A stretch of DNA of 50,990 bases from an uncultured Clostridia bacterium (GTDB taxonomy: Bacteria; Bacillota; Clostridia; Christensenellales; Aristaeellaceae): NCBI GenBank assembly GCA_947166705.1, contig CAMVFE010000014.1, forward strand, positions 1 to 50,990, written 5' to 3'. Under the pieces are notes generated by a model. It saw nothing but the letters and a program-made list of their open reading frames with translations, was not told the origin of the DNA and did no database searches. The first letter of the stretch is position 1. Each line of letters starts with the position of its first letter. Position numbers and translations under genes: made by a program. Below, in pieces: positions 1 through 2,491 of this stretch.

Positions 1-2073
1 GTAGGGCAGCTCCATGATCACGCTCTCGATCTCAAACGGCCCGATGCGGTAACCGCTGCTCTTGATGACGTCGTCCGCCCGGCCCACGTACCAGTAGAAG
101 CCGTCCTCATCCCGCCAGGCCACGTCCCCGGTGTGATACCATCCGTCGTGCATGACCTCCCGGGTCTTCTCCTCGTCCCGGTAGTACTCGCGGAACAGGC
201 CGATCGGAATCCCCCTGGAAATATCGATGCAGATCTCTCCGGGCGTGCCGGGGGAAACCGGCTTCCCGTCGGGATCCAGCAGCTCGACCCGGTAGATGGG
301 CGTCACCTTGCCCATGGAGCCCAGCTTGTGGTCCGCGCCGGCCAGGTTGCCGATGATCATGGTGCTCTCGCTCTGTCCAAAGCCCTCCATGACCTGCAGC
401 CCCGTCTGCTTTTCGATCTGCCGGTAAACCTCCGGGTTCAGCGCCTCGCCGGCGCTGGAGGCATGCGTCACGGAGGACAGGTCGTATTTGCTCAGATCCT
501 GCTTGATCAGCATGCGGTACATCGTGGGCGGCGCGCAGAAGGTGGTGATGTGGTATTTCGCGAACAGCGGCAGGATGTCCGCCGCGTCGAACCGGTCGAA
601 GTCGTACACGAAGATGGCCGCCTCGCACAGCCACTGGCCGTAGATCTTTCCCCATCCCGCCTTGGCCCATCCGGTGTCGGAGATGGTCAGGTGCAGTCCG
701 TTCGGGTTGACGCAGTGCCAGTATTTCGCCGTGTGCAGGTGACCCAGCGGGTGGGTGAAGCTGTGGGCCGCGATCTTGGGATATCCCGTCGTGCCGGATG
801 TGAAGTACATCAGCATCAGGTCCTCGCCGCAGGCCGCGTCCTCCGGCCGGTTGAAGTGGGTGGAATACATCAGGTATTCCTCGTCGAAGGTGTGCCAGCC
901 CTCCCGCGTTCCGTTGACGATCAGCTTCAGCTCCAGGCTCGGGGCGTCCTTCGCCGCCAGGTCCGCCTGGTGGGCGGTGTCCCCGTCGGCGGTGCAGAGG
1001 ATGGCCTTCACGCCCGCCGCGTTGAAGCGGTATTCAAAGTCGTGCTCCTGCAACTGGGCCGTCGCCGGAATGGCGATGGCGCCGATTTTCTCCAGCGCCA
1101 GGATGGAGAACCAGAACTGGTAGTGCCGCTTCAGCACCAGCATCACCCGGTCGCCCTTTTTGATTCCCAGCGCCTTGAAGTAGTTGGCGCACCGGTTGGA
1201 TGCCCGCTGGATGTCCCGGAAGGTGAAGCGCCGCTCGGTCTTGTTGTGGTCCAGGTGCAGCATGGCCAGCTTGTTCGGGACCTCCTCCGCGATGGCGTCC
1301 ATGACGTCGAAGGCGAAGTTGAACTTTTCGGTGTTCTTGAAGGTGATCTTCGTGGGCGTCCCGTGCTCGTCCTTGACCACATCCGCGAACCGGTGCCACA
1401 CCCGGGTGCGCCCGTTCTCCGCGGGGAATTCCTGCAGCGCGGGGCCGGAGGTAATCTTTTCCGGCATCAGCTCGGGAATCGGCGCCCCGGTGGGGTTCAG
1501 CACGATGGCATAGAACAGGCAGTCCTGCCCTCCGACGGCGATCATGCCGTGGGGCGTTCCGCTGTCGTAGTAGATGGAGTCCCCGGGATTCAGCACGGAG
1601 CTGTGCTCACCGACCTGGACCTTCAGCTGGCCCTCGATCACGATGTCGCATTCCTGCCCCTCGTGGGTCGTCAGCTTGATGTCCTCCCGCTCGGCCTCCG
1701 CGCTGTATTCCGCGTGGACATACAGGGGCTCGGCGATCCGGTTGCGGAAGGACGCCGCCAGGTTGTAGTACACCATGTCGTGGGCTTCCTCGATGCGCTG
1801 CCCCTCTCCCCGCCGGGTCACGGTGAAGGAGTTCAGGTTCGGGCGGGAGCCCTCGATGATCTCTGTCACGTCCACGCCGAAGGCCAGGGCGCAGCGGTAC
1901 AGGAAGGCGAAGTTCAGGTCGTTCCGGCCCAGCTCGCAGTCGATGTACTCCTGCTCGGAGACGCCGGTCTTCATGGCCATCTCCGCGATGGTGTAGTTCT
2001 CGATCTCCCGCAGCTCCCGGATCCGGTGCGCCATCTCCTGAATCTTAAAATTCAGCCCTGTCGTCTGCTCCAT
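1..2073 (-). CDS. HTH-cupin-acyl-CoA synthetase fusion (3' end outside window)
   Basis: This open frame starts at ATG 2073 and runs off the left edge, giving 691 visible codons that I read without interruption. The N-terminus (about residues 10-75) is an XRE-type helix-turn-helix. Residues about 115-195 form a cupin (HEGQECDIVIEG, then LNPGDSIYYDSGTPH). From about residue 240 it is an AMP-forming acyl-CoA synthetase of the medium-chain/acetyl-CoA synthetase type: the P-loop TSGTTG is near residues 425-430, followed by GFGQSEST, YHTGDVAWRDEDGF and GRADDVIKSSGYRIG. The family adenylates a carboxylic acid and transfers it to CoA. XRE-cupin pairs are normally stand-alone regulators, so this may be a ligand-sensing regulator fused to an enzyme. 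ATG 2073 is preferred over ATG 2079 because GGAGG lies 7 nt upstream of it. A T-box leader sits directly upstream. The acid substrate cannot be read from sequence; branched-chain or aryl acids are plausible. Confidence 0.87.
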   Translation of the reverse strand, partial: MEQTTGLNFKIQEMAHRIRELREIENYTIAEMAMKTGVSEQEYIDCELGRNDLNFAFLYRCALAFGVDVTEIIEGSRPNLNSFTVTRRGEGQRIEEAHDMVYYNLAASFRNRIAEPLYVHAEYSAEAEREDIKLTTHEGQECDIVIEGQLKVQVGEHSSVLNPGDSIYYDSGTPHGMIAVGGQDCLFYAIVLNPTGAPIPELMPEKITSGPALQEFPAENGRTRVWHRFADVVKDEHGTPTKITFKNTEKFNFAFDVMDAIAEEVPNKLAMLHLDHNKTERRFTFRDIQRASNRCANYFKALGIKKGDRVMLVLKRHYQFWFSILALEKIGAIAIPATAQLQEHDFEYRFNAAGVKAILCTADGDTAHQADLAAKDAPSLELKLIVNGTREGWHTFDEEYLMYSTHFNRPEDAACGEDLMLMYFTSGTTGYPKIAAHSFTHPLGHLHTAKYWHCVNPNGLHLTISDTGWAKAGWGKIYGQWLCEAAIFVYDFDRFDAADILPLFAKYHITTFCAPPTMYRMLIKQDLSKYDLSSVTHASSAGEALNPEVYRQIEKQTGLQVMEGFGQSESTMIIGNLAGADHKLGSMGKVTPIYRVELLDPDGKPVSPGTPGEICIDISRGIPIGLFREYYRDEEKTREVMHDGWYHTGDVAWRDEDGFYWYVGRADDVIKSSGYRIGPFEIESVIMELPY

Positions 2074-2094
2074 GCTCATTCCTCCTCGTCCGCG

Positions 2095-2371
2095 GCAAAA
2101 AAAACGTCTCAAAGCATTGCTTTGAGACGAGTATAAGCCTATACCCGCGGTACCACTCAAATTGCGGAGCCGCGCTCCGCCCCTTCAGGCTCCCTCCGGT
2201 ATCCCGGCAAGCCCTTTGCCCTGACGCGGCAGGATCGGGAAGGCTCTACTCAGGCGGACCCTTTCTTCCTTCCGGCTCAGGAGCGACTGATCTCCGGCCC
2301 CTTCCCGCGGCTCGCACCGTCCGCCGCGTCTCTGAAGCGGGGCTGCCGGACATCCTCTCCGTCACAGCTTT
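2095..2371 (-). promoter_or_regulatory. T-box riboswitch leader
   Basis: Reading the minus strand, the leader carries T-box landmarks in order: an AG-bulge sequence CAGAGA, the Stem I distal loop GGACGGTGCGAGCC, a GAGTAG segment, and the T-box GAGTGGTACCGCGG (about 2158-2145). A perfect terminator hairpin (2129-2105) with eight U follows. TCCGG/CCGGA and CCCC/GGGG pair as the upper part of Stem I. The specifier lies in the internal loop around GATCAGTCG, but its register is uncertain: ATC (Ile), CAG (Gln) and GTC (Val) are all possible. T-boxes bind uncharged tRNA and turn on downstream genes. Here the downstream gene is the HTH-cupin-acyl-CoA synthetase fusion, not an aminoacyl-tRNA synthetase. 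Confidence 0.9.
2097..2129 (-). terminator. T-box intrinsic terminator
   Basis: CGTCTCAAAG and CTTTGAGACG form a perfect stem around a short loop, followed by eight T on the minus strand. It lies between the T-box sequence and the start codon at 2073, as expected for the terminator that competes with the tRNA-stabilised antiterminator. Confidence 0.9.
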
Positions 2372-2377
2372 GCGGAC

Positions 2378-2407
2378 AGTCTACCGCATCTTCCGCGCCC
2401 TTGTCAA
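2378..2407 (-). promoter_or_regulatory. Promoter of the T-box transcript
   Basis: Sigma-A-like promoter on the minus strand: TTGACA (2407-2402), an 18-nt spacer and TAGACT (2383-2378). Transcription would start near 2371, just before Stem I of the T-box. Confidence 0.8.
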
Positions 2408-2491
2408 CAGAAAAACGAAAAATGTACCGTCGCTTCCTGTTGGTTTGTCTTGCACAGGTTATATTAGTTCCGAGGCCAGGGGCAGCCCTTG

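Follow-up and report, generated by a model that had tools for sequence, protein, structure and literature searches.

In T-box riboswitches, uncharged tRNA switches the leader RNA between an antiterminator and a terminator. Genes downstream of these switches usually encode tRNA ligases, transporters or classical synthesis enzymes. The enzymes VOR (2-oxoisovalerate:ferredoxin oxidoreductase) and BCAT (branched-chain aminotransferase) are reversible and known in amino-acid fermentation, and VOR can run oxidatively. That rumen anaerobes can build valine, isoleucine and leucine from branched volatile fatty acids was reportedly described by Allison, Peel and Robinson between 1962 and 1971. Valine is described as derived from isobutyrate and isoleucine from 2-methylbutyrate in these organisms, with branched volatile fatty acids also serving as leucine precursors (PMC7356843, citing older work). 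Among acyl-CoA ligases, S. aureus MbcS is described as activating 2-methylbutyrate and isobutyrate selectively (PMC10026030), and M. acetivorans Macs (PDB 3ETC) as preferring 2-methylbutyrate (PMC10455477).

Here we analyse a window of 50,990 nucleotides from an uncultured Clostridia bacterium, in which a T-box leader precedes a gene encoding an HTH-cupin-acyl-CoA ligase fusion. The leader resembles transcriptional T-boxes (RF00230) in its Stem I AGAGA landmark, the purine after the specifier, the UGGN bulge, the competing antiterminator and terminator, and the promoter just upstream, but differs from usual T-boxes in preceding an acyl-CoA ligase gene. The ligase domain is like that of MbcS and Macs, and small branched acids are its likely substrates; unlike those enzymes, the window ligase has N-terminal HTH and cupin domains and T-box control, and comes from a family with Val-linked and Ile-linked paralogues that differ at residue 472. 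The route proposed below shares its substrates, products and kind of habitat with the rumen branched-acid route, whereas the present analysis puts forward candidate genes together with a regulator, in uncultured clostridial lineages. Among the papers searched, we found none naming T-box-controlled ligases for this route, and the surveys of Vitreschak 2008 and Gutierrez-Preciado 2009 may mention it; word finds for acyl-CoA and ferredoxin in the main text of PMC2494555, PMC3766115, PMC7778990 and PMC7583486 returned neither term. What is new is the class of target; the switch itself is of a known kind.

Methods

The window is contig C14 of genome G000, an assembly that is 71% complete and comprises 73 contigs. 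Two sets of related ligase loci were compared with it. In the first set, 40 loci were mapped for gene neighbours, followed by 40 more. The second set consists of the best 80 of 592 relatives from a contig scan, all of them in metagenome-assembled genomes whose sources, where named, include goat, sheep, deer, buffalo, yak, cattle and horse; none of its loci shares 98% identical DNA with the first set.

Specifiers were assigned with a position rule, which puts the end of the specifier triplet six bases ahead of the GAG closing Stem I. In the resulting table of 64 first-set T-boxes (43 Ile, 16 Val and 5 Leu), the offset is 6 in 60 and 7 in four. For many leaders the rule offered more than one candidate, and others (among them L053 16195, L073, L079 and three Leu leaders) were overlooked or wrongly placed; these cases were settled by eye. 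In the second set, 65 specifiers were read by the rule, six of which gave a second candidate that was settled by eye, and a further six were read by eye (L212, L215, L218, L228, L245 and L255); the leader of L242 is cut off. Controls were 20 other T-boxes, hand-picked from the relatives' T-box list while avoiding ligase places. Loose regular-expression searches for specifiers gave many false triplets. An automatic reader read all 20 controls; in the ligase sets it returned other triplets in 52 of 172 matches, plus six CUC, and left seven loci unread. This reader was excluded from the ligase specifier counts, as was a second, less stringent reading of the second-set leaders, which also picked up triplets other than specifiers. 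A count of AGUA-like motifs proved too unspecific and was likewise set aside.

Trp259 of Macs was equated with Trp476 of the window ligase using a numbering offset of 23, derived from Gly459-Tyr460-Lys461; Trp476 lies four residues past residue 472.

Results and discussion

T-box leader and ligase gene in the window

Features of the leader and the gene behind it are summarized in Table 1. The initial annotation had placed a promoter, Stem I landmarks, a T-box and a terminator directly before the fusion gene; all were found on the minus strand at about that place, and the covariance search it had proposed as a check matched a T-box over the whole model, albeit with a score below the curated Rfam gathering score of 93. 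An Rfam scan of the window at the gathering threshold lists no T-box because the leader scores below it; the match appears when E-values are used. On this sequence evidence, the T-box upstream of the ligase gene is real. Its control of the acyl-CoA synthetase fusion, also claimed at the outset, is upheld as judged by position directly before the gene.

Table 1. Features of the T-box leader and ligase gene (forward-strand positions in the window)
Feature	Position	Strand	Basis or remarks
HTH-cupin-AMP-binding acyl-CoA ligase P0001	1..2079	-	HTH_19, Cupin_2 and AMP-binding domains
Codon of Trp476, aligned with Trp259 in the acyl pocket of M. acetivorans Macs	652..654	-	alignment
Codon of Ala472, residue tracking the specifier family-wide	664..666	-	alignment; Val class has Ala, Ile class has Gly
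Probable ribosome binding site GAGGAGGA	2080..2087	-	sequence
Intrinsic terminator	2097..2129	-	hairpin 2129-2105 (11 pairs, loop of 3) and T8 tract
T-box riboswitch leader, RF00230	2120..2374	-	cmscan, model 1-219 (complete), 69.8 bits, E 3.6e-15
Antiterminator	2121..2161	-	3' strand overlaps 5' strand of terminator
T-box sequence GAGTGGTACCGCGG with UGGU bulge	2145..2158	-	sequence; bulge fits ACCA end of A73 tRNAs
Specifier codon GUC (valine), followed by G	2285..2287	-	position rule and congeners
Stem I apical CAGAGA landmark	2326..2334	-	covariance-model alignment
Promoter TTGACA - 18 nt - TAGACT	2378..2407	-	10/12 matches; 1 found vs 0.1 expected in shuffles

One terminator was found against 0.4 expected in shuffles. 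The stretch containing terminator and antiterminator (2092-2162) folds far better than shuffles (z -4.23), and the two structures are mutually exclusive through their common strand; Stem I folded alone (MFE) is no better than shuffles (z -0.06).

Translation of P0001 probably starts at the ATG at 2073-2071, two codons into the reading frame, judging from the spacing to GAGGAGGA. The gene runs off the contig at base 1 and is cut before its C-terminal domain. Its best NCBIfam model is MbcS, at 326.6 bits for the truncated protein and far below the cut-off of 850. Among PDB sequences, 3ETC matches best (E 4.5e-150). The HTH-cupin part may act as an additional, ligand-responsive regulator.

A covariance scan of the whole source genome gave four T-boxes, among which the one in the window ranks second by score; the others score 76.3, 60.9 and 29.4 bits, all likewise below the gathering score. 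Two of these three carry UGG and precede genes that resemble a Trp ECF transporter and an ABC substrate-binding protein (tryptophan transport-like), while the remaining one precedes a thrS-like gene (open reading frames read by eye). The same genome also carries a second HTH-cupin and ligase pair on contig C24 (L174:9397-11691), which is split, has no T-box, is of the Ala type at residue 472, and adjoins genes resembling recO, rpsF, ssb and rpsR (read by eye).

Specifier assignment

The initial annotation had left the specifier ambiguous between ATC, CAG and GTC. Applied to the window leader, the position rule yields GUC. The rule names the right amino acid in all 15 control T-boxes whose gene indicates one: proS (CCC), valS (GUA, GUC, GUC), TrpB-like (UGG in four), tyrS (UAC in two), pheS (UUC in two), asnB (AAC) and isopropylmalate-synthase-like genes (CUC in two), the last two controls being weaker, as they fall below the family cut-off and belong to the pathway in question. 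The five other controls allowed no judgement (aspS AAC; tryptophanase-family, sodium symporter and MocR-like genes UAC; a gene without a match CUC). Congeners have GUA (L036) and GUC (L037) at the Val position, a synonymous change, and the source genome encodes a tRNA-Val(GAC) with A73 and the end CCCACCA, which fits the UGGU bulge. Of the three triplets first proposed, GTC is thus retained, and the specifier resolves to GUC, valine, from position, congeners and tRNA together.

The other two triplets were rejected. The tRNA-Gln(CUG) of the source genome has G73 (TGGGGAA pairs with TTCCCCA, then G; read by eye), and CAG therefore does not fit the window T-box. If AUC (2291-2289) were the specifier, the window ligase would serve isoleucine; this triplet begins four bases ahead of GUC, has a purine on its 3' side, and is the commonest specifier in the first ligase-locus set (43 of 64). 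It does not, however, lie at the position established with the controls, at which the congeners have GUA or GUC, and the window protein groups with Val-labelled congeners on the ligase tree and has Ala472. We consider an isoleucine assignment highly improbable.

The window leader lacks the GAA strand (S-turn) usual on the 5' side of the specifier and has UCA there instead, unlike 17 of the 20 control T-boxes; the other three controls likewise have no GAA. Among first-set T-boxes, GAA lies within five bases of the codon in two of the 16 Val leaders and in none of the 43 Ile or 5 Leu leaders. All three control valS T-boxes have the strand, which is mostly absent from the ligase T-boxes (2288-2294 in the window), perhaps reflecting two T-box lineages for one tRNA.

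T-boxes before ligases in related genomes

Matches to P0001 occur in 176 of 200 genomes of the order, counting any AMP-binding relative, and T-boxes were found in 45 of 47 hand-chosen genomes with good ligase matches. A T-box could be assigned to 57 of 96 tabulated ligases, 41 of them Ile (AUC) and 16 Val (GUA, GUC, GUG), and to 36 of the 47 fused ligases among the 96. The 39 ligases left without one include five that are second genes behind an Ile-clade ligase, and two (L080, L109) that do carry an AUC T-box beyond the distance limit used. In L044 the search returned no T-box upstream of the ligases. Seven loci (L051-L054 and L056-L058) contain tandem ligases with two T-boxes, one Ile and one Val. 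Ligases are often split in the loci listed from the further 40, where an HTH-cupin reading frame of approximately 180-230 amino acids is followed by the ligase.

In the second set, a T-box lies directly upstream in 72 of the 80 loci (best 80 of 592 relatives). Six of the eight others carry one at a distance of approximately 2.4-2.6 kb, probably ahead of the gene that precedes the ligase; in L183 the 3 kb upstream of the ligase contain no T-box, and the contig of L207 is without upstream sequence. The 71 specifiers read among these best 80 of 592 comprise 48 Val and 23 Ile, with no other amino acid represented. The initial annotation had supposed that the ligase acts on branched or aromatic acids. 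Trp, Phe and Tyr specifiers were found neither in the table of 64 nor among the 71 read (best 80 of 592), and aromatic acids are accordingly considered unlikely substrates; a branched-chain acid is most likely, isobutyrate in the case of the window ligase. From these alignments and leaders, the link between T-boxes and this ligase family recurs widely, with a Val/Ile split in both RNA and protein.

One observation against this pattern comes from a congener (G079, L035:2560-3140), in which no T-box was found before a ligase that is 92% identical to that of the window. This ligase starts shortly past a reading frame upstream of it, an arrangement that would fit deletion of the leader. Three relatives with AUC T-boxes are located on viral contigs. 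Leu (CUC) T-boxes are present at L052:2874-3113, L056:2410-2651, L057:2254-2470, L058:3013-3286 and L053:16195-16014, and also at L276 and L280. Those of L052, L056 and L058 stand directly before an isopropylmalate-synthase-like gene that is followed by a protein of 826-838 amino acids, which in L058 combines a xylose-isomerase-like TIM barrel with an AMP-binding ligase in one chain. These loci could represent an isovalerate or leucine branch.

Ligase clades and residue 472

On a quick maximum-likelihood tree of 96 ligase domains, the Val/Ile label requires 4 changes against a shuffled mean of approximately 14, with none of 500 shuffles as low, a test that near relatives inflate. A single aligned position, residue 472, follows the label closely: all 64 ligases labelled Val have Ala there, and 61 of the 64 labelled Ile have Gly (alignment including the best 80 of 592). 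The three exceptions, which combine an Ile T-box with Ala472 (L071, L097, L101), are HTH-less ligases of one family. The rule holds in two sister pairs of opposite label (L049 with L050, and L047 with the fused ligase of L060) as well as in the HTH-less Val ligase of L060, and therefore reflects more than a single ancient divergence. Where no T-box was assigned, the residue is Ala in 23 ligases and Gly in 16. Macs has Gly at the aligned position, and its acyl-pocket Trp259 is kept in the window ligase. Residue 472 may line the acyl pocket.

Proposed pathway and genomic context

The initial annotation had conjectured a link to reductive amino-acid synthesis, and in relatives VOR subunits and BCAT do occur in the same clusters as the ligases. 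We propose the following sequence of events. When valine is short, uncharged tRNA-Val(GAC) would bind the GUC specifier through its anticodon and the UGGU bulge through its ACCA end. As established for T-boxes in general, the antiterminator would then replace the terminator, allowing transcription into the ligase gene; the parts are recognised by sequence and the tRNA response is predicted from them. The ligase, a relative of methylbutyryl-CoA synthetases, would convert a branched short-chain acid of the gut, most likely isobutyrate, into its CoA ester, which VOR would reductively carboxylate to 2-oxoisovalerate for conversion into valine by BCAT. A paralogue with an AUC specifier would do the same with 2-methylbutyrate for isoleucine. 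We assign a probability of roughly 0.74 to this reading, in which valine starvation induces isobutyryl-CoA synthesis, reductive carboxylation and valine formation, with the Ile paralogue acting likewise on 2-methylbutyrate.

VorB-like genes are located near ligases in 9 of the 40 mapped loci (L041-L044, L049, L052, L054, L058 and L060), L053 being a tenth locus identified by a separate search, and BCAT in 7 of the 40; these counts are lower bounds because many contigs end early. In L043, VorB scores 539.2 (cut-off 399) and BCAT 481.7 (cut-off 307) against NCBIfam models. The source genome has VorB and BCAT genes on contigs other than that of the ligase, and its VOR genes showed no T-box nearby. 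The left edge of the window, where the initial annotation had suggested looking for ior/vor genes, is the contig end and leaves no neighbours in view.

Genes of the usual pathway are distributed differently. ilvC exceeds its cut-off in 62 of 200 genomes, namely in none of the 22 with a placed Val-type ligase vs 62 of the 178 others (p 3e-4, kinship ignored); six of the 22 have weak matches of at most 27 bits against a cut-off of 226. It was also not above cut-off in G100, G133, G171, G183 and G194, which have likely but unplaced Val-type copies. Among 30 chosen genomes, ilvD exceeds its cut-off in 0 of the 22 Val-ligase genomes vs 7 of 8 ilvC-positive genomes, the eighth of which (G101) has ilvD in pieces below cut-off; two of the 22 have matches short of the cut-off of 618 (G040, 572 bits; G104, 509 bits). 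Six of these eight ilvC-positive genomes gave an Ile T-box reading, G013 and G101 being unread. Neither ilvC nor ilvD was found in the source genome or in three congeners that are 97-99% complete, and all four have VorB and BCAT; for the source genome alone this is weak evidence, because its assembly is 71% complete.

These distributions bear on two other explanations. The ligase might make branched acyl-CoA primers for branched-chain fatty acids, the T-box merely signalling amino-acid shortage. S. aureus MbcS is described as doing so with the same acids (PMC10026030), and primers derived from valine and isoleucine would presumably become scarce together with them; the clustering of ligases with VOR and BCAT, and the placement of Val-type ligases in genomes without ilvC above cut-off, argue against a primer function, which we regard as unlikely. 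Alternatively, VOR and ligase might together work in the oxidative direction, breaking branched-chain amino acids down to acids and conserving energy, as the reversibility of VOR and BCAT would allow. T-boxes, however, turn genes on under scarcity of an amino acid, the opposite of what degradation would call for; the ligase is of the AMP-binding, AMP-forming kind, which spends ATP; and the Val-ligase genomes are without ilvC and ilvD above cut-off. Such a degradative role appears even less likely than primer supply. A T-box that is on when the amino acid is short, combined with missing ilvC and ilvD, favours synthesis over degradation.

If valine starvation does induce its synthesis from isobutyrate in this manner, the route known in rumen anaerobes since the 1960s would gain genes and regulation, acid activation would join the T-box repertoire, and valine would be rebuilt from fermentation waste rather than via the usual pathway. 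The tRNA specificity of the switch would further indicate the probable substrate of each ligase. Cross-feeding of gut communities on isobutyrate and 2-methylbutyrate would be explained, and auxotrophy calls for genomes without ilvC and ilvD would be corrected.

More tentatively, and with less than even odds in our estimation, the loci may form a branched-acid salvage regulon that takes the place of the classical ilv pathway throughout families of gut clostridia. Distinct T-boxes for Val, Ile and Leu would act on paralogous acyl-CoA ligases, together with the pair of isopropylmalate-synthase-like protein and TIM-barrel ligase; the specifier would be a readout of the substrate, Ala or Gly at residue 472 would set isobutyrate vs 2-methylbutyrate, and the HTH-cupin part would be the ligase's own second regulator.

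Two further proteins are encoded within the clusters of relatives. A CobQ/ParA-like P-loop protein is encoded in L041 (8129-8818) and six other loci, in most of these clusters between ligase and VOR genes, and is perhaps an iron-sulphur or assembly factor. In L056 (9208-10644), a protein combining an ACT domain with a metallo-beta-lactamase fold is encoded between the Ile and Val ligases, and is a possible amino-acid sensor.
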